From: Rhizobium sp. WYCCWR10014
Lineage (GTDB): Bacteria; Pseudomonadota; Alphaproteobacteria; Rhizobiales; Rhizobiaceae
Reading direction: 5' to 3'
DNA length: 64,000 nt
Assembly: GCF_001657485.1 (NCBI RefSeq)
Contig: NZ_LXFU01000028.1
Coordinates: 62,001-126,000, forward strand
In this document: positions 19,058-50,085 of the stretch, one piece after another
Layout: the number at the start of each line of letters is the position of its first letter
Numbering within the stretch: position 1 is the stretch's first letter
The notes under the pieces: generated by a model
Seen by the model: the letters and a program-made list of their open reading frames with translations, nothing else
Databases searched by the model: none
Told to the model about the DNA's origin: nothing
Made by a program: the position numbers and the translations under genes

Positions 19058-19169
19058 AAGCGCATCGAGACACCCGCTCTCGCAAAGCTGACAAAGCTGC
19101 CGCACTGTGGAGCCCCTCGCGAAAGCGGACTGGTCCGAAATCCCCAGGTTAATCAGGACGCCATCGGCC

Positions 19170-19185
19170 TGGCACGACGAGTGCT
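19170..19185 (+). promoter_or_regulatory. Sigma54 -24/-12 promoter before the fdxB unit
   Basis: tggcacgacgagtgct has GG and GC exactly ten bases apart. The block around it (cggcctggcacgacgagtgc, then taggacc and a-c-c-g-a-a/g-a-c-a-c-a) is almost the same as that upstream of fixA. Together with nearby nif genes this implies NifA-dependent expression. I found no perfect TGT-N10-ACA site close upstream, where an IS3 element now ends. Confidence 0.75.
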
Positions 19186-19277
19186 AGGACCAACCGAAAC
19201 ACAAAAATACATTCGGTTGGAGCCAGGGGACGTCTGGCCGCTGACATGTAAGTCTCCCAACCTGTGAAGGAGGGGCT

Positions 19278-19508: not shown

Positions 19509-19802
19509 ATGCCGGACTCATTCGTAAGCCGCGACGGATCTAGATGGCTCCCGGAATATCTGAGCCAGATAGACGCAAGTTGCATTGGCTGCGGCCGCTG
19601 TTTCAAAGTCTGTTCGCGTGACGTCATGCACCTTTGCGGCATTACCGACTCGGGCGAAATTTTAGGTGACGGTGATGGAGAAGACGATGATGAGGTCGAT
19701 CGATTGCTGATGATTGTCGATCACCCCGGCCGATGTATCGGTTGCGGCGCCTGCGCCCGCGTCTGCCCGAAGAATTGTCAGACTCACATCATGTCCCACT
19801 AA
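19509..19802 (+). CDS. fdxB: Nif-associated ferredoxin III (FdxB)
   Basis: The product has 97 residues. It contains two 4Fe-4S cysteine clusters: CIGCGRCFKVCSRDVMHLCG near residues 23-42 and CIGCGACARVCPKNC near residues 78-92. The acidic insert between them (GDGDGEDDDEVD) and the start MPDSFVSRDGSRWLPEY are typical of ferredoxin III encoded with nifENX. It is a cytoplasmic electron carrier, presumably for cofactor assembly or nitrogenase reduction. It starts after caggagaac. Elsewhere it follows nifX; here it stands alone with rpoN sequences. Confidence 0.9.
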   Translation: MPDSFVSRDGSRWLPEYLSQIDASCIGCGRCFKVCSRDVMHLCGITDSGEILGDGDGEDDDEVDRLLMIVDHPGRCIGCGACARVCPKNCQTHIMSH

Positions 19803-19822
19803 CGGACCGAGGAGATTTCCCC

Positions 19823-20212
19823 ATGACCTCTGCCAATCTTTTCCTCCGTCAGACGCACTCTTTGGTGCTGACACCGCGACTGATGCAAGCCATCCAGTTG
19901 CTGCAGATGACGCGTTTCGAACTCAAGCAGTTCATCACCCTGAAAGTTGAGAAGAACCCGCCGCTCGAATTTCAATCGAACGACGGGGAGACAGGCGACG
20001 ATGAGAAGTTCGGCCGCTTGCCGGAGGACGCCGGCGCAGACGATCGTTACGACAACCGGACCGGCGCGCTCTCCAGCGAATGGTCTGACAATGCCAGCAC
20101 CAGTCGGCTGAGTGAGGAAGTCGACGCCGATTACACCATTTTTCCCAACCGACAAGGTCTGCCGAGTGGCCCTGTCGCGTCTCCGACGAAAACCTGCAGC
20201 AAAGATGTCTAG
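19823..20212 (+). pseudogene. Truncated sigma54 gene (N-terminal part only)
   Basis: The frame starts MTSANLFLRQTHSLVLTPRL and continues MQAIQLLQMTRFELKQFITL. This is region I of sigma54, which contacts the activator. After residue about 110 it ends in sequence copied from the nifB upstream region (SGPVASPTKTCSKDV). Core-binding, HTH and RpoN-box parts are missing. It is a diverged partial copy of rpoN2, which starts 735 bases downstream. If made, the 129-residue peptide could still touch NifA, but that is speculative. Confidence 0.85.
20173..20188 (+). promoter_or_regulatory. NifA upstream activator-like site, copied from nifB
   Basis: tgtcgcgtctccgacg is TGT-N10-ACG, one base off the NifA consensus TGT-N10-ACA. 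The corresponding site before nifB (44721-44736, minus strand) has the same single mismatch. Confidence 0.5.
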
Positions 20213-20261
20213 AGCGGACAACCAACAGCATGCCCAGTTGGAAAGGTGAGGATTCTCAAAC

Positions 20262-20277
20262 TGGCATCGCTCTTGCT
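20262..20277 (+). promoter_or_regulatory. Sigma54 promoter before rpoN2, a copy of the nifB promoter
   Basis: tggcatcgctcttgct has GG and GC ten bases apart. It is identical over its 16 bases to the nifB promoter at 44632-44647, and the surrounding leader (ctcgcggaactgagctttc and onward) is also shared. It should make rpoN2 dependent on NifA and sigma54, giving positive feedback. Confidence 0.8.
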
Positions 20278-20314
20278 CGCGGAACTGAGCTTTCAAGCGT
20301 TATTGGAGTTCGGA

Positions 20315-20400
20315 ATGTCCCGAGGGATAAGTTGTAATCGTATAGCCACCAACACCGCGCCTGAGAGTAAGCGCTTGCCTACCCGCAGACACGCCATGCC
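20315..20400 (+). pseudogene. Copy of the nifB start
   Basis: The frame MSRGISCNRIATNTAP parallels the NifB start MSRGMSKCRITNTAP. Similarity fades after about 20 codons. It is the downstream end of the duplicated nifB promoter block. Confidence 0.7.
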
Positions 20401-20437
20401 GATGATCCAGTGTTCACCGAAAATGGGGGATCCTTCG

Positions 20438-20542
20438 ATGAAAGTAATCGCTCTTGTGGGCACACTGCTCTTCTCCGTCTCCCTTGCCGCCTGTGGCGAG
20501 GCATTCGGTAGTCCGAACCTTGACCTGACAACATTTTCCTAA
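20438..20542 (+). CDS. Tiny predicted lipoprotein before rpoN2
   Basis: The product has 34 residues: MKVIALVGTLLFSVSLAACG followed by a short tail ending TTFS. The hydrophobic stretch and LAAC lipobox at residues 16-19 predict export and lipidation; the mature peptide would be 16 residues. The ATG at 20438 has ggggga eight bases upstream. It lies between the sigma54 promoter and rpoN2, 16 bases before the rpoN2 start. It resembles the size class of entericidin-like peptides but I cannot assign it. Confidence 0.5.
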   Translation: MKVIALVGTLLFSVSLAACGEAFGSPNLDLTTFS

Positions 20543-20558
20543 CGACCAGGAGGTTCCC

Positions 20559-22115
20559 ATGGCCTTGTCGGCAAACCTTTTCCTGCGTCAGACCCAGTCC
20601 CTGGTAATGACACCGCAATTGATGCAGTCCATCCAGTTGCTGCAGATGACGCATTTCGAACTCAACCAGTTCATCGCCCTGGAAGTGGAGAAGAACCCGC
20701 TGCTCGAATTTGCGAACGACGGCGAGACGGGCGACGAGTACACGGCAGGCGATGACGAGCGGTTCAGCCACTCAACGGAAGATGCCGGCGCGGATGATGG
20801 CACCGACAATCGTGAGGATGCGCTTTCCAGCGACTGGTATGACTATGGCGGCAGCGCCGGCACCAGCCGGCTGAACGACGAACTCGACGCCAATTACAGC
20901 AATGTCTTTCCTGATGACGGTGCCCCGCAGCGCCTCGATGCGCCGGAGCTCGTCAGCCAGTGGAAATCGATGCCGGGCAGCGGCGAGGGCGCCGATTACG
21001 ATCTCGACGATTTCGTCGCCGGCCAGGTGTCGCTGCGCGATCATCTCGCCCAGCAGATCCCCTTCGTTCTGCCTGACATGGCCGACCGGCTCATCGCGCA
21101 GAATTTCGTCGACCAGCTCGACGACTGCGGTTATCTGCAGGCCGATATCGTCGAAGCGGGCGAGATGCTGGGCACGAGCCTCGCACAGGCCGAGCGCGTG
21201 CTCGCCACCCTCCAGAGCCTCGATCCGCCGGGTGTTTTCGCCCGCAGCCCTGCCGAATGCCTGGCGATCCAGCTCAGGCAGAAGGACCGATACGACCCGG
21301 CCATGCAGGCTATGGTCGAAAACCTCGAACTCCTGGCGAGCCGCGATTTCGCCACGCTGAAGCGGCTTTGCGGCGTCGACGAGGAAGATCTTCTCGACAT
21401 GCTCGGCGAGATCCGCCAGCTCAATCCGAAGCCCGGCAGCGGTTTCGGGGCGGGCGTTTCCGAAGCGATCATGCCCGATGTGGTCGTCAGAGCCTCCTCG
21501 GATGGCGGCTGGCGGGTCGAACTCAATCCGGATGCGCTGCCGCGCGTGCTGGTCAACCAGTCTTATTTTTCCCGGGTGACAAAGAACGGCGAGGATCACG
21601 CCTTCCTCTCCGATTGCCTGCAGACCGCCAACTGGCTGACCCGCAGCCTCGATCAGCGGGCTAAAACCATCATGAAGGTGGCAAGCGAAATCGTCCGCCA
21701 GCAGGACGCCTTCTTGCTGCACGGCGTCGGCTATCTGCGCCCGCTGAACCTGAAGACGGTCGCCGAAGCGATCAAGATGCATGAATCCACCGTCAGCCGC
21801 GTCACGTCGAACAAATATATGCTGACGCCGCGCGGCCTCTTCGAACTCAAATATTTCTTCACCGTCTCGATCAGCGCCGTCGCCGGCGGCGACAGCCATT
21901 CGGCCGAAGCCGTGCGTCACAAGATCCGGGCGCTGATCCTGGAGGAGAGCCCGGAGGCGGTGCTTTCCGACGGCGATATCGTCGACATGCTGAAGAAGGG
22001 CGGCGTCGATCTCGCCCGCCGCACGGTTGCGAAATACCGGAAGGCGATGAACATCGCCTCTTCGGTTCAGCGCCGCCGCGAAAAGCGGGCGCTTGCCAAG
22101 GTCGCTGGTTCGTGA
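20559..22115 (+). CDS. rpoN2: RNA polymerase sigma54 factor (RpoN2)
   Basis: The product has 518 residues, normal for sigma54. Region I is at the start (NLFLRQTQSLVMTPQLMQSI), then an acidic region II, then core-binding region III (VSLRDHLAQQIPF and QNFVDQLDDCGYLQ). The HTH is near residue 390 (LKTVAEAIKMHESTVSRVTS). The RpoN box (ARRTVAKYRKAMNI) lies near the end and reads the -24 element. It directs transcription from nif and fix promoters with NifA. It starts after aggaggttccc. The upstream copied nifB promoter suggests symbiotic, autoregulated expression, as known for rhizobial rpoN2. Codon usage is GC-rich compared with its surroundings. Confidence 0.95.
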   Translation: MALSANLFLRQTQSLVMTPQLMQSIQLLQMTHFELNQFIALEVEKNPLLEFANDGETGDEYTAGDDERFSHSTEDAGADDGTDNREDALSSDWYDYGGSAGTSRLNDELDANYSNVFPDDGAPQRLDAPELVSQWKSMPGSGEGADYDLDDFVAGQVSLRDHLAQQIPFVLPDMADRLIAQNFVDQLDDCGYLQADIVEAGEMLGTSLAQAERVLATLQSLDPPGVFARSPAECLAIQLRQKDRYDPAMQAMVENLELLASRDFATLKRLCGVDEEDLLDMLGEIRQLNPKPGSGFGAGVSEAIMPDVVVRASSDGGWRVELNPDALPRVLVNQSYFSRVTKNGEDHAFLSDCLQTANWLTRSLDQRAKTIMKVASEIVRQQDAFLLHGVGYLRPLNLKTVAEAIKMHESTVSRVTSNKYMLTPRGLFELKYFFTVSISAVAGGDSHSAEAVRHKIRALILEESPEAVLSDGDIVDMLKKGGVDLARRTVAKYRKAMNIASSVQRRREKRALAKVAGS

Positions 22116-39163: not shown

Positions 39164-40753
39164 TTAGGCCGCAGAGGTTTTGGAGAGGTTGAACGGCAGC
39201 AGGTCGCCGATGTCGGCCGCTTCTTCGCGCTGCGGCAACTCAGTGAGCACGTGGCGCAGCCAGGTGAGCGGGTCGACGCCACAGGCGCGGCAGGTCAGCA
39301 TCAAACTGTAGATCACGGCGCTGGCCTTGGCTCCGTCAGCGGTGTCGCTGAACAGCCACGATTTCCTGCCGGTGGCAAAAACTCTGATCTCGCGTTCCAG
39401 AATGTTGTTATCGATCGGCATCCTGCCGTCGCTGGTATAGCGCGTTAGATAATCCCATTGGTTCAGGGTGTAGGACACTGCATCACCGAGCTTGGTATCC
39501 GGCACGACCTTCGGCGCGATATTGCCGAGCCAAGTCTTCAGAGCGTTCAGGACAGGCAAGCTGTGTTGTTGCCGGAAGCGGCGAATGCAGTCTGCTTTCG
39601 TCTCGCCGGCATCTGGGGTTTTGTCTCTTGCCTGCTTTTCGATCCGGTAGAGCTGCTCGAAGAACCGGAGTGCCTGTTCCGGCGGTCCGCCTCCGTTCTT
39701 CCTGGTTTTGAGAGCCTCGACGAAGCGCCGCCGTGAATGGGCGATGCATCCGACATGGGTTGCGCCATGTAATGTGCGCCAGGCGGTGTAGCCATCGGTC
39801 ACCAATATGCCGCGGTAGTCACCGAGAAAGGCCTGCGGGTGGACCTGGCCGCGGCCCGGTTGATAATCGAGAAGCACGATTGGCTCCTCACTATTCTCGC
39901 CGCTGCGATATGCCCACATGTACGACGTGCTGGTGGCTTCCTTGTCCTTTTCCTTCAGCACTTGAACTGTCGTCTCGTCACCATGAATGAGAGGCTGCGA
40001 CTGAAGCCGCAATCTCAGCGCATCGTAGATGCGATGCAGGTGCCTCTCGCTCGAGCCGATCACCCAGTGCGCGAGAGCGCCCCGGCTGATCGGAACACCG
40101 GCCCGTTCGAATGTTTGCGCCACGCGGTAGAGCGGCGTGCCGTCGACGTATTTGTGGACGAGTGTGAAGGCCAGTGTCGAGGCAGTGGCAATGCTGCCCG
40201 GCAAGGGCTGCGGCGGCATCGGTGCGATCACCACAGGCGTGTTGATCCCGGTGCGGTCGCAATGGCGGCAGGCGTATTTGAACCGCACATTCTGCAGAAC
40301 CTTTGCCTTGACCTCGATATGGAGCTGTTCGCTAACGGCCTCGCCCATGCGATGCATTTGACTGTCGCAGCAAGGGCAAGTTTTTTGATCGTCGGGTAGA
40401 TCGTATTCGACACGCTCGCCCGGCAGGTCTTCCGGCAGAGGTCTGCGGCCCCGCTTTTTACGCGCGGCGCTATCGACTGCTGGCAGGCCTGTATCCGGAA
40501 GATCGGCGACGTCGTCGCCATAATCACGATCATCCTCGTCTGCGGCCTCTTCGGCCTCGTTGAAGATGCGATCGATGTGCTTTTCGCTGCGGGGGGCAAA
40601 ACGATGGAGCTTTGCGAGTACCAGCTCTTCTTCCAGCTTGGCGACCCGCTGCGAGAGCGCTTCCTTCTCGGCTTTGAGCGCGGCGATTTCGGCGGCACTT
40701 GCCGCCAACTGCGCCATCAGCTCTGCAACATCAGGTTCGCCGGTTTGGGTCAT
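39164..40753 (-). CDS. IS66-family transposase TnpC
   Basis: The product has 529 residues: an N-terminal leucine-zipper region (EIAALKAEKEALSQRVAKLE), a zinc-finger motif (KTCPCCDSQMHRMGEAVSEQ) and the DDE domain of IS66 (PLIHGDETTVQVLKEK, GILVTDGYTAWR, NNILEREIRVFATGRKSWLF). The frame is complete. The neighbouring IS66 end motif is not found directly after it, so the left end of the element is probably lost. Confidence 0.92.
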   Translation of the reverse strand: MTQTGEPDVAELMAQLAASAAEIAALKAEKEALSQRVAKLEEELVLAKLHRFAPRSEKHIDRIFNEAEEAADEDDRDYGDDVADLPDTGLPAVDSAARKKRGRRPLPEDLPGERVEYDLPDDQKTCPCCDSQMHRMGEAVSEQLHIEVKAKVLQNVRFKYACRHCDRTGINTPVVIAPMPPQPLPGSIATASTLAFTLVHKYVDGTPLYRVAQTFERAGVPISRGALAHWVIGSSERHLHRIYDALRLRLQSQPLIHGDETTVQVLKEKDKEATSTSYMWAYRSGENSEEPIVLLDYQPGRGQVHPQAFLGDYRGILVTDGYTAWRTLHGATHVGCIAHSRRRFVEALKTRKNGGGPPEQALRFFEQLYRIEKQARDKTPDAGETKADCIRRFRQQHSLPVLNALKTWLGNIAPKVVPDTKLGDAVSYTLNQWDYLTRYTSDGRMPIDNNILEREIRVFATGRKSWLFSDTADGAKASAVIYSLMLTCRACGVDPLTWLRHVLTELPQREEAADIGDLLPFNLSKTSAA

Positions 40754-40805
40754 CCCAGTTTTGAATCTGAACCGCGTCGCCGCGTCAACAGATCAACACG
40801 CCACC

Positions 40806-41159
40806 TCAGCCGGCAATCTGATATTGCCGCACAGGATGACGGATCATCGCATCGATATCGATCCCGTCGAGAATCCAGTGCAGCTGCTCGGTCGTCAGTG
40901 TGACCACCGGCACCTCTCGGCGCGGCCATCGGAACTTGTCTTCGGTTAACCGCTTCAGGACCAGCACGAACCCGGACCGATCAAAGAACAGCAGCTTCAC
41001 CCGGTCACGCCGACGGTTGCAGAAGGCAAACACTGCAGGAGCAAACGGGTCCAGCGCCATCGTCTCCTGGACCAGGACCGCAAGGCTGTTGATGCCCGCC
41101 CGGAAGTCGATCGGTTCGCGGTGCAGGTAGACTTGAAGATCAGCGCCAAGCTTAAACAT
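40806..41159 (-). CDS. IS66-family accessory protein TnpB
   Basis: The product has 117 residues with the IS66 Orf2 signature: VYLHREPIDFRAGINSLAVL, FAFCNRRRDRVKLLFFDRSG and FVLVLKRLTEDKFRWPR. The gene overlaps tnpA by eight bases, as usual in IS66. Confidence 0.92.
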   Translation of the reverse strand: MFKLGADLQVYLHREPIDFRAGINSLAVLVQETMALDPFAPAVFAFCNRRRDRVKLLFFDRSGFVLVLKRLTEDKFRWPRREVPVVTLTTEQLHWILDGIDIDAMIRHPVRQYQIAG

Positions 41160-41586
41160 GACCCAGAGCTCCGATTATTGCCGTCAATGCGTTGAGATCG
41201 CTGCACTCCAGCGTCAATCTCACACCATTCGGCAGTGACGCACTCACCTTTGCTGGAGAGGTCAGCGGGCCGCTTCTCTCCGTCGTCGGCAATCGCTCTT
41301 CGCGATCCGTGGCAGGCATCTCAATGTCGAACTCGCTGCTCGGGGCGGCGATCTGAACGGGAATAAACGCAGATGACGAAGACGGCGATAATGGATGGGC
41401 CTGGGTGTGTTTCCTGATCCATTTCCAAACGAGGTTCGCGTTGACCCCGTGTACTCGCGCAAGTTTCGATACTGATGCGCCGGGTTCAAGGCATGCCGCA
41501 ACTAGGCGATCTTTCGAACCTGGATCGAAGCGGCGCCTTCCATTCCGACCAACCAGCCGCACGGCGAGTTTTTGACCTTCATCCAT
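41152..41586 (-). CDS. IS66-family accessory protein TnpA
   Basis: The product has 144 residues from the ATG at 41586 (MDEGQKLAVRLVGRNGRRRF). It contains the helix-turn-helix LEPGASVSKLARVHGVNANL, VWKWIRKH. The longer frame to 41634 begins inside a palindrome and is unlikely to be used. It forms the IS66 set with tnpB and tnpC. Confidence 0.85.
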   Translation of the reverse strand: MDEGQKLAVRLVGRNGRRRFDPGSKDRLVAACLEPGASVSKLARVHGVNANLVWKWIRKHTQAHPLSPSSSSAFIPVQIAAPSSEFDIEMPATDREERLPTTERSGPLTSPAKVSASLPNGVRLTLECSDLNALTAIIGALGHV

Positions 41587-41591
41587 AACTT

Positions 41592-41618
41592 GGTGTCCAC
41601 CTCTTTTAGGTGGACACC
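41592..41618. terminator. Perfect palindrome between tnpA and the Ntn-hydrolase gene
   Basis: An 11-base stem (ggtgtccacct / aggtggacacc) around five bases (ctttt). It is 55 bases after the stop of the Ntn-hydrolase gene on the minus strand. It may terminate that transcript or mark the edge of IS66; there is no clear T-run on the minus strand. Confidence 0.4.
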
Positions 41619-41672
41619 TCATGCCAAAGCTCACTCAACTACAGAAGGTGCGGTGAAATTCGCGGTTACAGC

Positions 41673-42206
41673 CTATTGCGTAGCCGTGCCCCGATATTTC
41701 CGGAAAAGTCGAACGACGCGCCCGATCTTTGACGGTTGGTTGGCGTCGGACGTATCGAGCTGCAAGGTCACAATAGGAGGTTCGGAGAAGGGATCGCACT
41801 CGATAGCCACGTTAACGGCGCCTAACATGTCAGCGCCGGCCCTGAAGGCGCCCAGCGCGTACGCACAACCCGAGCCTATCGCGATGAAGTCGGCCTCGAT
41901 CGGGCCGGAAGGATAAATGCTGTTGTTGAAGAAAAATCTCGAGCCATCGACCTTTACCAGGAGCGCCTCAAAATCGGGCTCGTTCGTGCCAAACGCTTCC
42001 TTGCTCATGCCCCCCGTCACCCACTGCGTGACGAATTCATTCATACCGGGAACGGTGGACGAGACGCCGAGCAGCGAGCCTTTGTATTTCCCTGCCTCGA
42101 TCCGGTGAATCTTCCTCTTGGCGCCGATCGGATGGCTGCTGCCGGAGAAGGCGCGGCTGTCAGAGGCCATTCTCCGAATCTTGGCGTCGTAGACGATGGT
42201 GGTCAT
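41673..42206 (-). CDS. Ntn-hydrolase of the proteasome/HslV type
   Basis: The product has 177 residues from the ATG at 42206 (gaggg upstream). After Met removal Thr is first: TTIVYDAKIRRMASDSRA carries Thr1 and the Asp near position 17, and IGAKRKIHRI supplies a Lys near position 33. Together these form the Thr/Asp/Lys catalytic set of proteasome beta subunits. FIAIGSGCAYALGAFRAGAD is the conserved GSG-x-x-x-A-x-G helix segment. It is the size of HslV and of phage-type Ntn hydrolases, but no HslU-type ATPase is nearby. It follows nifB-fdxN-nifT on the same strand with only short gaps, so it may be transcribed from the nifB promoter. Its substrate is unknown. Confidence 0.75.
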   Translation of the reverse strand: MTTIVYDAKIRRMASDSRAFSGSSHPIGAKRKIHRIEAGKYKGSLLGVSSTVPGMNEFVTQWVTGGMSKEAFGTNEPDFEALLVKVDGSRFFFNNSIYPSGPIEADFIAIGSGCAYALGAFRAGADMLGAVNVAIECDPFSEPPIVTLQLDTSDANQPSKIGRVVRLFRKYRGTATQ

Positions 42207-42217
42207 ACACCGAGCCC

Positions 42218-42529
42218 TCACTTGATGCGCTTCGGGCGCCTGATGGTGTTCGTAACCGACTGAAACCGGACCTGTGCCGAGTCAGGCACTTGCTTTATGC
42301 AAGCCGCGATATTCATGTGTTCCCGGGCTGCAAGCGAATGCTGTCTTGGTGTCTCGGGTTGTTCATGCGCGAAATGAAAAACGTAATCGTAAGATTGGGC
42401 ATGTTTATCCTCCACGTGAACCAATGCCGTTATTTCACAAGATGGCTGCGCCAGCCGTTCCCTTCGCACATCGGCAGCCGCCGCTGTCGAAAGTCCGATG
42501 TTCGGTCCGCCCGTGTCAGTCCTGATCAT
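42218..42529 (-). CDS. Chimeric ORF ending in a copy of the fixA start
   Basis: The product has 103 residues. Its ATG at 42529 overlaps the nifT stop by four bases. The first 71 residues (MIRTDTGGPNIGLSTAAAAD and onward) are unrecognised. From 42316 the frame reads MNIAACIKQVPDSAQVR, SVTNTIRRP, a diverged copy of the FixA N-terminus (MNIVVCIKQVPDSAQIR, PVTNTIMRQ). It ends 12 bases before the Ntn-hydrolase start. It could be translated as a whole or be only debris. Confidence 0.5.
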   Translation of the reverse strand: MIRTDTGGPNIGLSTAAAADVRRERLAQPSCEITALVHVEDKHAQSYDYVFHFAHEQPETPRQHSLAAREHMNIAACIKQVPDSAQVRFQSVTNTIRRPKRIK

Positions 42530-42726
42530 TGCTTCCTCGCCTCGACTGTGATGGGTAAGCGGGTGCTCTGCGCTAGGTCGGGGAGGGCGAGGAGCCATCC
42601 GTTCCTTAGCAATACAAAGCCGCCCCACAAGTCATGACTCTCCACCGCAACAACCGGCTCCTCGACATCCTTTTTGGACATATAGATCGACAAGCCGGCC
42701 CCATTTCTCCGGATCATTGCTTTCAT
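42526..42726 (-). CDS. nifT: NifT (FixU)
   Basis: The product has 66 residues with the whole NifT/FixU pattern: MKAMIRRNGAGLSIYMSKKD, VEEPVVAVE, DLWGGFVLLRNGWLLALPDL and ending TRLPITVEARKQ. It is a small conserved nif protein of unknown precise role. It follows fdxN by 167 bases on the same strand. Confidence 0.93.
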   Translation of the reverse strand: MKAMIRRNGAGLSIYMSKKDVEEPVVAVESHDLWGGFVLLRNGWLLALPDLAQSTRLPITVEARKQ

Positions 42727-42831
42727 TTACTGTACCTCGTTTTACACGTGCTCCATTTCGCACCCGTTGGAACCGACGATGCTGCCACGCTCAACCACCT
42801 CATTGTTCCATGGGTTGCTGTCGAGGAGGAT

Positions 42832-42865
42832 GCCCGCCTGCGCCAAAATGCTTTCGCAGGCGGGC
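42832..42865. other. Strong stem-loop between fdxN and nifT
   Basis: An 11-base GC-rich perfect stem (gcccgcctgcg / cgcaggcgggc) with a 12-base loop. On the minus strand it is not followed by a T-run, so it may be an mRNA stabiliser or partial terminator between fdxN and nifT. Downstream the frame LLDSNPWNNEVVERGSIVG to EMEHV (ending 42742) may be the leftover end of another nif gene such as nifZ; this is a guess. Confidence 0.5.
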
Positions 42866-42893
42866 CCCTTTTGCTTTCGTTTAGTACGGCTGC

Positions 42894-43088
42894 TCAGGCA
42901 GGAACGCAGGTGTTCGGCATGGGGCAAATGGCTCTGCATTTGGGCGCGTCAAACTCAATCCTGCACTCGGTGCATATTTTAGGATCGACCACGAATCTGT
43001 CAGTTTTGAAACTGATTGCGCCTGAGGGGCACTCAAATTCGCATGCGCCGCATTGGGTGCATTGTGAGGCGATGATTTTGAAGGCCAT
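42894..43088 (-). CDS. fdxN: FdxN, 2[4Fe-4S] ferredoxin
   Basis: The product has 64 residues with two cysteine clusters: [15 protein letters not shown] at residues 10-24 and [18 protein letters not shown] near residues 40-57. The long second-cluster spacing is typical of bacterial nif ferredoxins of the FdxN type. It gives electrons to nitrogenase-related steps, including NifB chemistry. It lies 33 bases after nifB and is cotranscribed with it. Confidence 0.95.
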
Positions 43089-43121
43089 GATTCAGCTCCT
43101 CTGGTTTAGTCAAAGCGTGTG

Positions 43122-44594
43122 TCAAGTCGCGGCTGCTAAAGCGTCGTCGTGAAGCACCGCGCTATAATGAGCGTCGATTGCCTGCTCGATGTAGGAGCCG
43201 CCATAAGCGCCCGTTGCTCGAACACCTCGGCGTGCGAGTTTATTCGTAGGGCCCTTGCCGATCTGAGAACAAATCAGCAAATCTAAGCCTTCGAGCGCAT
43301 TGATGATACTGTTGAGAGTAGCCTCCTCCCCCCATCCACCAAGGCAGTACGGGTCGATCTTCAGGTGACCAATCAATCCGATGCCTTTTTGACAGACTGA
43401 GAAAATTTGTAGTTCCTGCGCGTGACCGAAATGTTCATTGACCCGGCCTCCACCTTTGGTGGTTACAGCAATAAGGAGAAGTTCGTCAGATGGACCTGAG
43501 ACCGATGTGGCCGCGCCCCTTGCTTCCAATGTTTGGGCGCGTCGCTCGCGCTCGATCAACTTGCGATAGGCATTGCGCTTGCCACTGTCGTTGGTCGCTT
43601 CAGCTGGGAGTTGGGAAATCTTGAATTCGTTTGCGCGATCATCACTGAGCAGACCGACTGCATCGGCGCGGCACTGGCGGCAATGGCGCATCACCTTCGT
43701 GTCGCCTTCAAGCCGATCCCGGAGCGCGATTAGTTCGGAAGGTGTAGGGCAACGCTGATCGTTCATGCCATAGAAAGTGCCATGTGTAGGCTCTGAAATC
43801 AGGGGCATTACGTTGTGCATGAACGCACCCCTGTCCTTGACCCACTTGTTAACATCGATGAGATGCTCGTCGTTGACGCCTGGGATCATCACGGAATTGA
43901 CCTTGATGAGGATGCCGCGTTCTGCCAGCATTTCGAGCCCCAACATTTGCCTCTCATGAAGGATCCTGGACGCGTCGATACCGTTGTAGCGGCGGCCGTC
44001 ATAGAATATCCAGGGGTAGATCTTGGTCCCGATCTTCGGATCTACCATGTTGATGGTGATCGTCACGTGCCCGACATTCATGTCGACAAGCTCGTCGACA
44101 TGTTCAGGAAGTGCGAGACCATTGGTCGAGATGCAAAGCTTGACGTCAGGGATTTCCCGGGCGATCGGTATGAGCGTCGCCTTTGTTTTCCTCCAATCGT
44201 AGCAGGCATCGCCTGGCCCGGCGATGCCCACCACCGAAAGCTGCGGCACTTCGTTGGCGACCGCCATGGCCCTGCGCAGCGCCTGGTCGGGAGTGAGCCT
44301 ATGGGATGCTACTCCTGGCCTGCTTTCGTTGGCGCAGTCGTATTTTCGATTGCAGTAATTGCATTGGATATTGCAGGCTGGTGCGACCGCGAGATGCATC
44401 CGCGCGAAATAGAGATGCGCCTCCCGCGAGAAGCACGGGTGGTCTTTGATCTTTTCAATGATTGCTGGAGCCATACCATTCGGCTCTGAACTACCACGGG
44501 ATGAAGACGCATGGTCACCGAACGTTGTTGCCCCCGGCTCGCGTGCGGCAGGTGCTGTGTTGGTGATCCTACACTTACTCATCCCTCTGGACAT
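43122..44594 (-). CDS. nifB: NifB, radical SAM enzyme of FeMo-cofactor synthesis
   Basis: The product has 490 residues from the ATG at 44594 (MSRGMSKCRITNTAP); the longer frame to 44663 covers the promoter and is not used. The radical-SAM cluster is in CNIQCNYCNRKYDC near residues 95-108. It is followed by VVGIAGPGDA and CISTNGLALP, a CRQCRADAVG cysteine region, and a C-terminal NifX-like domain (AVTTKGGGRVNEHFGHAQEL). It makes the carbide-containing NifB-co precursor. Expression comes from the sigma54 promoter at 44632. Confidence 0.97.
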   Translation of the reverse strand: MSRGMSKCRITNTAPAAREPGATTFGDHASSSRGSSEPNGMAPAIIEKIKDHPCFSREAHLYFARMHLAVAPACNIQCNYCNRKYDCANESRPGVASHRLTPDQALRRAMAVANEVPQLSVVGIAGPGDACYDWRKTKATLIPIAREIPDVKLCISTNGLALPEHVDELVDMNVGHVTITINMVDPKIGTKIYPWIFYDGRRYNGIDASRILHERQMLGLEMLAERGILIKVNSVMIPGVNDEHLIDVNKWVKDRGAFMHNVMPLISEPTHGTFYGMNDQRCPTPSELIALRDRLEGDTKVMRHCRQCRADAVGLLSDDRANEFKISQLPAEATNDSGKRNAYRKLIERERRAQTLEARGAATSVSGPSDELLLIAVTTKGGGRVNEHFGHAQELQIFSVCQKGIGLIGHLKIDPYCLGGWGEEATLNSIINALEGLDLLICSQIGKGPTNKLARRGVRATGAYGGSYIEQAIDAHYSAVLHDDALAAAT

Positions 44595-44631
44595 TACGAA
44601 CTCCAATGACGCTTGAAAGCTCAGTTCCGCG

Positions 44632-44647
44632 AGCAAGAGCGATGCCA
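44632..44647 (-). promoter_or_regulatory. Sigma54 promoter of nifB
   Basis: On the minus strand tggcatcgctcttgct has GG and GC ten bases apart, with the -12 about 40 bases before the nifB ATG. The same 16 bases occur at 20262 before rpoN2. Confidence 0.88.
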
Positions 44648-44720
44648 GTCTGAGAAACGTCACCCTGCCAGCTGGGTATGCTCTTCGTTGTCCGGTTTAG
44701 ACCTCTTTGCTACAGGGTTT

Positions 44721-44736
44721 CGTCGGAGACACGACA
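44721..44736 (-). promoter_or_regulatory. NifA upstream activator-like site for nifB
   Basis: tgtcgtgtctccgacg on the minus strand is TGT-N10-ACG, one mismatch from the consensus. It lies about 75-90 bases upstream of the -24 element, a usual distance. Confidence 0.55.
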
Positions 44737-44836
44737 GGGCCGCTTGGTAGACCTTGTCGGGTGGGGGAAACTAGAATTGCCGGGCGTCAGTTGGGCGCGA
44801 CCTGCCGCAGCAGGTCTGCACCAATGACCTCCTTGA

Positions 44837-46018
44837 CTAGAAGAGTTTTCGTTCGATCCCGTGCCGGCGCAGAGAGTAACCGACCTGTCGCGGCGTACGA
44901 CCAAGGAGCCGCGCAGCTTTAGCCTGATTCCCTCCGGCCGTCGCCATCGCCTGTACCAACCGTTCTCTGCCGATCAGACCTGAGTGTCCCATTACGGCTT
45001 CGGCCGCGAAGACGGCGGCATCACGCGGCTGTCCCGTTGACACGGTTTCACCTCGAGCGAGCCCATGAACTGCGCCCTTGCCCTCTCGCTCGGCAACCGC
45101 CTTTTTGAGGAGCGGGGAATAGCATCGACCCTGTTCACAGGCGAGATCTTGAGGAATGATGACGTCCGAACGGGCGAGCGTTGCGGTCCTCTGTATGCAG
45201 TTTTGCAGCTCACGAATATTGCCTGGGAACTCGCATTTCGAAAGGATATCAAGTGTGGAGGGTGCAAAGCTTAACGAACGGCCGTTCTCCTTGTTGAAAC
45301 GCCGAAGGAATAATTGGGCCAAACGCGGGATGTCACCGTCGCGTTGCCTCAGTGGTGGCAAAGTGATCGGTACGACATTGATCCGGTAATACAGGTCGGC
45401 TCTGAATTCTCCCGCCGCCACGGCCGTTTCAAGATCCTTATTGGTCGCGCAAATCAACCTGACATTGACTTTCAATGTTCTGGTCCCACCGACGCGCTCA
45501 AGTTCGCCTTCCTGCAAGACGCGCAGCAACTTGGCCTGGAACTCCGCCGAGATTTCTCCTATTTCGTCGAGCAGCAAAGTTCCACCGTGCGCCAGTTCGA
45601 ACCGACCTTCTTTCGGAGAGGTAGCGCCGGTGAAGGCGCCTTTCTCGTGCCCGAAAAGTTCCGATTCCAGAACGCCTGCCGACAGCGCAGCGCAATTCAA
45701 CTTTACGAAGGGCTTTTCACGGCGCGACGAAGAATCGTGTATCAGCTTTGCAAAGAATTCTTTGCCCGTGCCGCTCTCACCTCTCAACAGAACAGGCGAG
45801 TTGCTCCTTGCGACAATCTGGGCAATTTCAAAAACCTCCTTGAGTGCGGCACTCTCGCCGACAATTTCAGCACCCGGCCGCACTGCAGATTTGGGCGTCG
45901 TCTCATCATCTGATCCAGCCACGGGGCTACTCCATTCAGCACGTGGTTCAGAGTGCTTTGGGCACTCAGGACAGTCCTGGAACGTCCTCCGCGCTACATA
46001 TTGGACTTTGAAGGTCAA
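44837..46018 (-). CDS. nifA: NifA, sigma54-dependent nif activator lacking the GAF domain
   Basis: The product has 393 residues. It goes almost directly from a short start (MTFKVQYVARRTFQD) into the AAA+ domain: IVGESAALKEVFEIA, RGESGTGKEFFAKLIH (Walker A), ESELFGHEKGAFTGATS (the GAFTGA loop that contacts sigma54), GGTLLLDEIGEI and FRADLYYRINVVPI. The oxygen-sensing cysteines are complete (C-x11-C-x19-C-x4-C, from CEFPGN to CEQGRC). The Fis-like HTH is at the end (GNQAKAARLLGRTPRQVGYS). Other NifA proteins have about 150-200 more N-terminal residues with a GAF domain. A NifA without it is described for biovar trifolii. Likely expressed by read-through from fixABCX. Confidence 0.96.
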   Translation of the reverse strand: MTFKVQYVARRTFQDCPECPKHSEPRAEWSSPVAGSDDETTPKSAVRPGAEIVGESAALKEVFEIAQIVARSNSPVLLRGESGTGKEFFAKLIHDSSSRREKPFVKLNCAALSAGVLESELFGHEKGAFTGATSPKEGRFELAHGGTLLLDEIGEISAEFQAKLLRVLQEGELERVGGTRTLKVNVRLICATNKDLETAVAAGEFRADLYYRINVVPITLPPLRQRDGDIPRLAQLFLRRFNKENGRSLSFAPSTLDILSKCEFPGNIRELQNCIQRTATLARSDVIIPQDLACEQGRCYSPLLKKAVAEREGKGAVHGLARGETVSTGQPRDAAVFAAEAVMGHSGLIGRERLVQAMATAGGNQAKAARLLGRTPRQVGYSLRRHGIERKLF

Positions 46019-48876: not shown

Positions 48877-49725
48877 TCACGTGAGCCCATTCGGTTGAAA
48901 GCTCGCTTCCAATGCGGGCTGGTGCTCGAAGATCGATGCGATTATTTCGTCAACCAGCGGACCGCACTGGTCATCGTTTAATTTGATTTGGATTGCTTTT
49001 TCGGCCCTTGGGGTGGGGGCGAATACGCGCTTGACGACGGTCGGTGATCCTCTCAAGCCGCAATTAGCTATCTCCACAATACCGGCGTCGGCTGCACGCC
49101 AGGTCGGTATTTGCGCGCGTGCGGCACGCAACGCGTCAGCGACGGAGCCGCGACGGAGGGCGTTGACGCCTTCAAGGACACTGATCAAGCACGGCAGTTG
49201 GCTCTTCAGCATTTGTGTGCCGCCTTCCGAACGGCGCTCCACCGTGATCTCTCGGGCATGAAGATCGACTGAGACAATTTTCGTTACGTAGGTCAGTTGT
49301 TGCAGTTCGAGACGCCTGGCAATCCCCGGCCCCACCTGCGCAGTATCGCCGTCGATCGTCTGCTTGCCAGTAAACACGATTTCAGGCGCATGGCGGAGTC
49401 CAAGGTTCGTGATAGCTCGCGAGATAGCAAATGAAGTTGCCAAGGTGTCTGACCCGGCGAAGTGACGGTCGCTCAGGAGTACCGCTTCATCTGCGCCGTA
49501 TGCCAGAGCTTTCTCCAGCGCTTGTTTTGCCATAGGCGGGCCCATGGTAAGCACAGTGACTTTACCCCCATACCGGTCACGCAGTTTGAGAGCTTCTTCC
49601 AAGGCGAAAAGATCATAAGGATTGATGATGGTCGGCACGCCCTGGCGCATGATGGTATTCGTAACCGGATGAACCCGGATCTGTGCAGAGTCAGGCACTT
49701 GCTTTATGCAGACCACGATATTCAT
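48877..49725 (-). CDS. fixA: FixA, ETF beta-like subunit
   Basis: The product has 282 residues: MNIVVCIKQVPDSAQIRVHP, NPYDLFALEEALKLRDRYGG, VTVLTMGPPMAKQALEKALA and FTGKQTIDGDTAQVGPGIAR. It binds flavin with FixB and takes electrons from NADH. It is the first gene of fixABCX, with a sigma54 promoter 52 bases upstream. Fragments of its 5' end occur at 42218. Confidence 0.96.
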   Translation of the reverse strand: MNIVVCIKQVPDSAQIRVHPVTNTIMRQGVPTIINPYDLFALEEALKLRDRYGGKVTVLTMGPPMAKQALEKALAYGADEAVLLSDRHFAGSDTLATSFAISRAITNLGLRHAPEIVFTGKQTIDGDTAQVGPGIARRLELQQLTYVTKIVSVDLHAREITVERRSEGGTQMLKSQLPCLISVLEGVNALRRGSVADALRAARAQIPTWRAADAGIVEIANCGLRGSPTVVKRVFAPTPRAEKAIQIKLNDDQCGPLVDEIIASIFEHQPALEASFQPNGLT

Positions 49726-49776
49726 GCTGTCTTTGGCTCCGACCGAAATGTAGTAGTTTGTGTCTCGGTCGGTCCT

Positions 49777-49792
49777 AGCACTCGTCGTGCCA
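49777..49792 (-). promoter_or_regulatory. Sigma54 promoter of fixABCX
   Basis: On the minus strand tggcacgacgagtgct has GG and GC ten bases apart, identical to the site at 19170. No exact TGT-N10-ACA element is seen within 150 bases upstream. Confidence 0.88.
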
Positions 49793-50085
49793 GGCCGATT
49801 GCGCGGTGATTAACTCGCGAGTTTCGGGCGGGTCGAGTTTGCTATTGGTCCAACGGTGCGACAGCTTTGCCAGGTTTGCGACACGGGTGGCTGCATGCGC
49901 TCGGCAGCGGTGCAACACTGCTTGCGCGATTTTTTGACCGCAAACGATTTCGCTAGAGCTCCGCGCCGCTTTCCAATTGCCAGCATTTGCGTCAAGTGCG
50001 GCTCATTCGACGGAGACGTGCTTGCGCAGAGTTACCGTGGCTCTCCGAGAGCCTCACGACATATGTGCGACATTGTCGTCAATTT

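Follow-up and report, generated by a model that had tools for sequence, protein, structure and literature searches.

A phage-type Ntn hydrolase gene on Rhizobium symbiosis plasmids, probably captured behind the start of fixA

The closest described relatives of the protein studied here are the phage proteasome homologs termed PPH, proteins of about 140 residues in which helix H2 is absent and which carry a proteasome-like Thr/Ser1-Asp-Lys-Gly set (Fuchs 2021, PMC8665760). In the portion of that paper available to us, a non-phage context for PPH is given only in the hosts Mesorhizobium and Pseudoalteromonas, no word starting with 'rhizobi' occurs, and the phage homologs are given no tested function. 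Peptidases of a different kind, HrrP and SapA, are rhizobial M16 enzymes for which the accessible parts of two papers report degradation of NCR peptides (PMC8175422, PMC9953144), and one of these papers, in its available part, lists U204_1, an HrrP-like plasmid protein of 911 aa from a clover strain, at 87.5% to HrrP (PMC9953144).

The window, that is the whole 64,000-nucleotide stretch of Rhizobium sp. WYCCWR10014 DNA analysed here, encodes a hydrolase (Table 1) with Thr2, which becomes Thr1 once Met is removed, Asp16, Lys32 and Gly47 in the places of Thr/Ser1, Asp17, Lys33 and Gly47 of proteasome-like Ntn hydrolases. The GSG helix is in place (GSG, residues 111-113); the preliminary description of this gene had already read this helix and the Thr/Asp/Lys set. 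D16, K32 and G47 were invariant across the 16 rows of a first alignment (A1), and D16, K32, G111, G113, Y116, A117, A120, G124 and A125 across the 39 sequences of a second (A2). Of the 80 viral loci, 38 entered A2; those that were cut, were duplicates or had an odd start were dropped. Structure prediction of the monomer (mean pLDDT 91.4) gave the Ntn fold that had been supposed, with HslV 4g4e as the top structural match (Z 17.6, rmsd 2.6, 144 aligned) and Z of at least 8 for 1000 of the 1000 chains compared. In the model, helix 55-64 is followed by a 4-residue helix (69-72) and a strand (80-84), and the domain ends at about residue 150 of 177. A profile search matched PHROG 1040, the 'peptidase HslV family' of phages, to residues 1-153 (E 1.7e-27) and to four relatives too, while the best PDB profile-sequence match was BPH (E 9.5e-11). 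By its profile, the hydrolase belongs to this phage family, from which its plasmid-borne, nif-linked context sets it apart.

Several other assignments failed. Public records label the protein 'peptidase S14', which we take to mean ClpP; this is ruled out, no Pfam family matching at E of 1 or below and the fold being Ntn instead. HslV shares the fold, but the hydrolase scored 12.3 bits against an NCBIfam equivalog cut-off of 157.75, and the genome has its own separate chromosomal HslV. The Pfam search gave no M16 metallopeptidase match. Neither HslU nor any other ATPase lies beside the gene, in agreement with the earlier view that it has no ATPase partner. The GTG start at 42221 chosen by the ORF caller (182 aa) is unlikely, because five residues would then precede the nucleophile. 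As far as the available text on PPH goes, the hydrolase resembles those proteins in being compact, phage-borne in type and proteasome-like, with a Thr/Ser1-Asp-Lys-Gly set, no propeptide and, in our model, a single long helix after the oxyanion glycine; it differs in its apparent capture behind a fix gene start on symbiosis plasmids and in its C-terminal tail (residues ~153-177), which is unlike the tails of the aligned phage copies. PHROG 1040 is probably the published PPH family.

Relatives 61-63% identical to the window hydrolase occur in Rhizobium phages of ~120 kb and in the phage-plasmid-like pRlX6. Single-protein searches of genome contigs and viral contigs returned no relatives; alignment A1 run against viral contigs gave at least 195 among 600 candidate stretches, and the best 80 were kept. 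The gene preceding the hydrolase carries PF24729 (Acb2/Tad1 hairpin domain) in all eight phage or phage-plasmid loci tested, a set that does not take in the more remote phage loci L021, L028 and L029, and each of the eight phage-type loci tested shows a 4-base overlap between the two genes. Exceptions to the pairing exist: in phiM5 a terminase gene precedes the hydrolase. In distant locus L021 the gene in this position is annotated as terminase.

Table 1. Features in and around the hydrolase segment (window positions)
Feature	Position	Strand	Basis or remark
IS66 element just downstream of hydrolase	39164-41634	-	ORFs, comparison with public plasmids
Phage-type Ntn hydrolase	41673-42206	-	ATG start, 177 aa; profile, alignment, structure prediction
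Chimeric ORF	42218-42529	-	contains fixA'::phage fusion; same ORF annotated in loci L003, L004
Last codons (RRPKRIK, stop) of phage Acb2/Tad1-hairpin gene, fused to fixA'	42218-42241	-	sequence comparison
Copy of fixA 5' end and leader	42235-42357	-	80% over 125 columns
nifT	42526-42726	-	NCBIfam/Pfam
GC-rich hairpin between fdxN and nifT	42827-42869	-	T-run absent on this strand
4Fe-4S ferredoxin, fdxN-type	42894-43088	-	NCBIfam/Pfam
nifB	43122-44594	-	TIGR01290
-24/-12 (sigma54-type) site CTGGCATCGCTCTTGCT before nifB	44632-44648	-	11/13 consensus positions
fixA, source of captured 5' end	48877-49725	-	comparison; annotated in locus L002
-24/-12 site CTGGCACGACGAGTGCT before true fixA	49777-49793	-	same as site preceding 23B second copy

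The preliminary description had placed the gene after nifB, fdxN and nifT on the same strand, and profile matches upheld this for nifB, nifT and the 4Fe-4S ferredoxin, which we take to be fdxN. The 167-base gap between fdxN and nifT contains a strong hairpin, and the terminator listing has none on this strand between nifT and the hydrolase. The nifT stop overlaps the start of an intervening ORF by 4 bases (ATGA, 42529-42526), as described before, but the gap from the end of this ORF to the hydrolase start counts 11 bases rather than 12. The ORF had been called chimeric, and its 42235-42320 segment is indeed 87% identical to the fixA 5' end (49644-49730). The truncated fixA reading frame begins at 42316; sequence comparison shows that about 25 first fixA codons are fused in frame with about 10 last codons of the phage gene, the junction falling at a short stretch common to both, TCATGCGCC. 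From these comparisons we read the chimeric ORF as a scar left when the hydrolase gene was captured; this, like the phage origin of the hydrolase, the earlier account had missed. We do not take the stretch between nifT and the fixA copy (42358-42525) for a nifH leader, the similarity being weak; by eye, its first bases look like the region downstream of nifT in locus L123. The IS66 element downstream of the hydrolase is present in CC275e and 9B and absent from 23B and TA1.

Retention of the fixA promoter by the window copy is ruled out, as the copied stretch ends 8 bases short, and no promoter of its own is recognisable directly before this copy. No perfect TGT-N10-ACA occurs on the nifB strand within 44600-44900. 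In strain 23B, a second copy located elsewhere retains the entire fixA-type -24/-12 promoter together with a TGT-N10-ACA site; it also has the start of fixA and the ATGA stop/start overlap. In this copy Ser112 of the GSG motif is replaced by Thr, the single virus-conserved column that varies among captured copies; the best promoter thus stands before a hydrolase with changed surroundings of its catalytic site.

We consider it likely that a phage hydrolase was captured by a symbiosis plasmid and drawn into the nif regulon. Capture would have occurred probably once, through illegitimate recombination within fixA. The fixA-type promoter would bring the hydrolase into the NifA/sigma54 regulon, with production in nitrogen-fixing bacteroids, and it is from this promoter that we infer both; since its gene sits behind a nitrogen-fixation gene start, the hydrolase is probably produced in root nodules. 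Rearrangement of the cassette in the window lineage would have cost it the fixA promoter, and the nifB-fdxN-nifT promoter may serve the cassette now behind nifT. Removal of Met would expose the Thr nucleophile, and the enzyme, lacking an ATPase of its own, may cut peptides or some other amide substrate. The Thr/Asp/Lys set is kept while the remaining sequence changes fast. The benefit, if any, probably lies in the nodule.

Conservation beside nif genes in other rhizobia, on which the preliminary description had staked its reading, held in part and not for rhizobia in general: the segment follows nifT in 15 of 38 plasmids with close fdxN and nifT and is absent from the other 23, and copies in R. 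binae, Vavilovia and lentil strains lie elsewhere. Synteny was read directly in seven of the 15; in 14, one continuous match spans at least 95% of the hydrolase, the broken copy of L025 being the exception. On a quick look at three forward frames, of which one in L128 was readable, loci L127-L130 showed no nif context. The strains with captured copies are from Trifolium, Galega, Vavilovia and lentil; truncated remnants occur in Sinorhizobium, and remnants were seen in strains of Medicago lupulina. These hosts are IRLC legumes. Matches to the fixA promoter number 8 in the window's own genome and 8 in the 23B plasmid, while TA1 has 7 and the plasmids of CC275e and Galega have 2 apiece.

The captured copies show a dN/dS of ~1, against 0.14 in phages, which together with the broken copies is also compatible with a decaying passenger: a dispersed fixA-promoter repeat would have picked up a phage gene that now decays with no symbiotic role. 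We regard this as possible though doubtful. Frameshifted copies (L025, L006, L009), truncated ones, the presence/absence polymorphism and the multiple promoter matches per genome or plasmid (2 to 8) all fit it. However, among six captured copies amino-acid variation touched 1 of 15 virus-conserved columns (conserved at 90% or more), Asp16 and Lys32 being spared, versus 82 of the 138 remaining columns (p=1.3e-4), and there was no depletion of synonymous change. Stops also argue against a passenger, with 0 seen in the six copies versus 5.5 expected (p=0.004) over at least 234 substitutions, a figure biased because intact copies were chosen, as do the near-complete matches in 14 of 15 plasmids. 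The tree included two frameshifted copies, L006 over codons 1-133 and L009 from codon 18 onwards; the selection tests did not.

It seems unlikely, although some observations point that way, that the enzyme hydrolyses NCR or other host peptides in the manner of HrrP, altering symbiosis outcome in IRLC legumes while its pocket diversifies. The fixA-type promoter and the host list would suit such a role. Codons 24, 31, 51 and 115 each show three different residues among three near-identical alleles, and double-hit codons between the window type and 23B number 5 against 0.58 expected; the three closest alleles have a dN/dS of 2.67, which is statistically indistinguishable from 1 (p=0.2). With our own codon models, M2a was favoured over M1a in the six captured copies (LRT 38.5, unchanged with another tree), but the same comparison was significant (p<0.01) in fixA, fixB, fixC and nifA, four of six control genes, and not significant in nifB, nodC and the phage set. 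We thus reject diversifying selection as proven; recombination or multi-base mutations may mimic positive selection in site tests. An M16 peptidase gene lies two genes from the second 23B copy, recalling U204_1, and its product is ~87% identical to S. meliloti plasmid M16 proteins. This neighbour was seen in a single plasmid, where the surrounding stretch is rich in IS6. Host range cannot be separated from R. leguminosarum ancestry, and folded, disulphide-bonded peptides would have to be cleaved without an unfoldase. HrrP and SapA, as described in the available parts of the papers cited above, are peptidases of rhizobia that act in nodules, hrrP being an accessory gene, but they are metallopeptidases of a family unrelated to the Ntn hydrolase, and it is for them that NCR degradation is reported. 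That a phage counter-defence protease placed in the nif regulon digests NCR peptides in bacteroids, its pocket diversifying as the host's peptides change, we judge distinctly unlikely.

An improbable alternative is that the hydrolase and the Acb2/Tad1-like protein act together against host immunity and that the plasmid copy hinders related phages. Phages of this type infect Rhizobium and the two genes were paired in every tested locus of the set above, but the partner is cut to ~10 codons in captured copies, phiM5 lacks it in this position, and a fixA-type promoter would be an odd choice for phage defence. A housekeeping role in nitrogenase maturation or turnover as part of a nifB operon, suggested by the position behind nifB-fdxN-nifT, is highly improbable, given the 23 plasmids without the gene and the captured copies that do not adjoin nifT.

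Capture from a phage and recruitment by a fixA-type promoter would place a phage proteasome homolog outside phages, wired by a traceable fusion to the start of a nitrogen-fixation gene, on clover plasmids including that of TA1, a past inoculant according to the available part of its description (PMC9953144). If the hydrolase works, it would offer a tractable system for the biochemistry of this phage family; present in some strains and absent from others, its gene may also account for differences between strains in clover symbiosis. If the NCR reading were true, host-range peptidases would include, next to HrrP, a second class that is derived from phages. Since nif promoters are dispersed repeats on symbiosis plasmids, our data suggest that genes of foreign origin can enter the nodule programme through them.

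The product of the gene behind nifB-fdxN-nifT matched no Pfam family at E ≤ 1 and missed the NCBIfam equivalog cut-off for HslV by a wide margin, but it matched PHROG family 1040, "peptidase HslV family", at E 1.7e-27 in the PHROGs profiles. A structure model computed from this protein and 38 viral homologues had a mean pLDDT of 91.4, the tail beyond residue 150 being poorly predicted. Its best structural match was HslV (E. coli HslV, Z 17.6, 144 residues, 18% identity), 20S subunits ranked close behind, and the nearest solved sequence by profile was BPH (E 9.5e-11). The proteasome-like Ntn fold proposed in the preliminary description is thus supported by prediction, and the proposed Asp, Lys and GSG helix also held: Asp16, Lys32, the GSG glycines, Tyr116, Ala117, Ala120, Gly124 and Ala125 are invariant in 39 aligned sequences. 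Public records name the hydrolase "peptidase S14". S14 being ClpP, this label is wrong in view of these results. A chromosomal-type HslV is also present in the same genome, on another contig.

Positions of the hydrolase genes and associated features
Feature	Sequence	Position	Strand	Remark
Ntn hydrolase gene	window	41673-42206	-	177 residues, N-terminus MTTIVYD
Copy of fixA start	window	42235-42320		87%, upstream of hydrolase
GC-rich hairpin	window	42827-42869		between fdxN and nifT
Candidate nifB promoter site	window	44648
fixA promoter repeats	window	19135-19225; 49706-49839
Ferredoxin-like ORF	window	19509-19802		identified by eye
Copy of nifB promoter and 5' end	window	20144-20363		84.5% to 44549-44765
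RpoN-looking ORF	window	20559-22115		identified by eye
Duplicate of its 5' part	window	19799-20138		73.8%; region 19733-22115
IS6-flanked hydrolase cassette, strain 23B	L121	2853-8534		enclosed by a pair of IS6 transposases sharing one accession
Remnant of fixA-phage fusion, S. medicae ml60	L010	7957-8210		unannotated

Outside symbiosis plasmids, the sequences nearest to this gene are of phage type. The Rhizobium phages B1VFA, V1VFA-S and RHph_X66 encode proteins 62-63% identical to the window protein, and 385 phage records matched it at E ≤ 1, 79 of them covering at least 80% of the protein. A 63%-identical homologue lies on the 119-kb plasmid pRlX6 in a similar gene order. In the phages, a preceding partner gene ends within the start of the hydrolase gene, the two sharing 4 bases (ATGA, but TTGA in locus L023). 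When B1VFA and seven further loci were scanned, the partner gene carried the Acb2/Tad1 hairpin domain (PF24729) in all eight (L008, L017-L020, L022-L024), for which reason the two genes may form a counter-defence unit. In Sinorhizobium phage phiM5 a terminase gene precedes the hydrolase, so the pairing is not universal.

The chimeric ORF noted previously upstream of the window gene proved to contain a copy of the fixA start fused to the tail of the phage gene: the frame reads MNIAACIKQVPDSAQVRFQSVTNTI and then RRPKRIK and a stop, and a phage partner gene ends, for example, in ...NRAVMRPKRIKGDLA and a stop (L030). At the junction, true fixA reads ...AATACCATCATGCGCCAGGGC and phage X66 reads ...CGCGCCGTCATGCGCCCGAAGCGC; as both share TCATGCGCC, recombination may have used this common stretch. 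The identical junction was found in plasmid loci L002-L006, L007 (in part) and L025-L027, in L121 of strain 23B and in the Sinorhizobium remnant of S. medicae ml60, the one record inspected of nine such; in L009 it is partly missing. This recurrence points to one capture event that spread afterwards.

The fixA copy in the window does not reach the fixA promoter, breaking off 8 bases before it. The stretch from fdxN to the hydrolase contains no -24/-12 site with GG-N10-GC scoring above 8/13, the nearest candidate promoter is that of nifB, and a strong hairpin without a T-run (z -2.6 for a 171-base stretch) separates fdxN from nifT; co-transcription from the candidate nifB site is therefore possible. 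The hairpin is perhaps a processing or stabilising element.

The second hydrolase copy of strain 23B has an uninterrupted reading frame and shares 56% identity with the window protein. Its 5' region has TGT-N10-ACA and the same -24/-12 sequence as fixA, CTGGCACGACGAGTGCT; the leader and start of fixA are kept, the in-frame fusion ends in MNIAICIKQVPDSARIRFHSVTNTIMRPERIKGGLVQ and a stop, and an ATGA overlap joins it to the hydrolase. We infer that this copy retains the original layout of the captured cassette, in which a phage hydrolase would be transcribed and translated like fixA. Thr replaces Ser112 of its GSG, which could alter catalysis. Two genes away, an adjacency seen in this plasmid alone, lies an M16 peptidase of 911 residues, which shares about 87% identity with M16 proteins encoded by S. 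meliloti plasmids. An HrrP-like plasmid protein of 911 residues, with 87.5% identity to HrrP, is described for a clover strain in the excerpted text of PMC9953144; the 23B protein resembles such proteins in its length and its S. meliloti plasmid matches.

The fixA promoter region is itself a dispersed repeat, found on own-genome contigs C28, C43 and C44, with 8 matches in the own genome, 8 in 23B, 7 in TA1 and 2 each in the CC275e and Galega plasmids. In the window, the repeat at 19169 stands before the ferredoxin-like ORF, and the nifB promoter copy precedes the RpoN-looking ORF, whose 5' part is duplicated. Watson and Schofield reportedly described repeated nif promoter sequences in R. leguminosarum bv. 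trifolii, where Iismaa, Watson and colleagues are said to have sequenced the nif-nod junction in the 1980s.

Conservation of the gene behind nifT in other symbiosis plasmids was found in part. The post-nifT segment occurs in 15 plasmid records, of which 14 are clover-type and one comes from a Galega nodule; they are the same 15 that gave the best hydrolase matches (H1-H15); synteny was read directly in seven, one of which (L025) has a frameshifted hydrolase. A close fdxN-nifT was found in 38 plasmids by megablast, which covers close relatives only; 23 of them are absent from the 36 records having any hydrolase match. In three of these 23 that were inspected, nifT is followed directly by nodJ (L123), by a transposase piece and nodJ (L124), or by IS66 and other sequences (L125), with no hydrolase match at E ≤ 1e-3. 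The gene is frameshifted in Vavilovia, intact in R. binae from lentil and, in OyaliB, also from lentil, broken by a frameshift near codon 17; in these three it sits close to fixA together with a TlpA-family gene, or to other genes, and does not follow nifT. Within the genus, 5/148 genomes matched, including the window's own and one at 33% identity only.

Captured copies (L002-L005, L007) compared pairwise with one another gave dN/dS of 0.77-2.08 and, against phage copies, 0.37-0.57; the phage-type pair L008 and L017 gave 0.23, and adjoining nif, fix and nod genes 0 to 0.44. Under a codon model the estimate was 1.06 in six captured copies, which does not differ from 1, and 0.135 in five sequences of phage type. 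Among captured copies, only 1/15 virus-conserved (≥90%) columns varied (Ser112Thr), compared with 82/138 others (p=1.3e-4), and synonymous change was not depleted there (5/15 and 22/138); purely neutral evolution is therefore unlikely. Cut-offs of 60, 70 and 80% gave the same direction (13/41, 8/28 and 6/22; p 0.0009-0.01), with synonymous change if anything enriched in the conserved columns (p 0.009, 0.05, 0.03), so that sites are unequal in mutation too. With at least 234 changes, 5.5 stop codons would be expected and none was observed (p=0.004), a figure biased by the choice of intact copies. Three near-identical alleles have three different residues at each of codons 24, 31, 51 and 115, and the three captured pairs tested showed an excess of double-hit codons, which three phage pairs lacked. 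M2a fitted captured copies better than M1a (LRT 38.5); because four of six control genes also favour M2a, we do not regard diversifying selection as demonstrated. In L002-L005, fixA, fixB, fixC and nifA give site-model signals of positive selection, perhaps through recombination between plasmids or gene copies.

In the excerpted text of PMC8665760, the phage proteasome homolog family PPH is defined and described as viral, with Mesorhizobium and Pseudoalteromonas exceptions; HrrP/SapA and NCR peptides are covered in the abstract of PMC8175422, and the excerpts of PMC12691615 contain no word beginning "peptidase". Judged by title and abstract start, with subscription papers mostly outside this scope, no paper among the matches listed concerned this gene, its capture or the phage pair. 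"Peptidase S14" was absent from the 15 of 92 literature matches listed for nifB or R. leguminosarum, as were Acb2 and the phage pair from the 8 of 16 listed for HslV or Ntn hydrolase, and none was found joining "Rhizobium phage" and HslV.

The predicted fold, the catalytic residues, the fusion and the 23B promoter sequence are what sequence and modelling establish here. From family knowledge, Met removal would expose Thr1 as the N-terminal residue, and the predicted hydrolase would cleave an amide bond of its substrate. Hydrolysis of host NCR peptides is the boldest reading that fits the data, and a passenger gene the dullest. Most likely the gene is intermediate between these two, a domesticated, nif-linked hydrolase.
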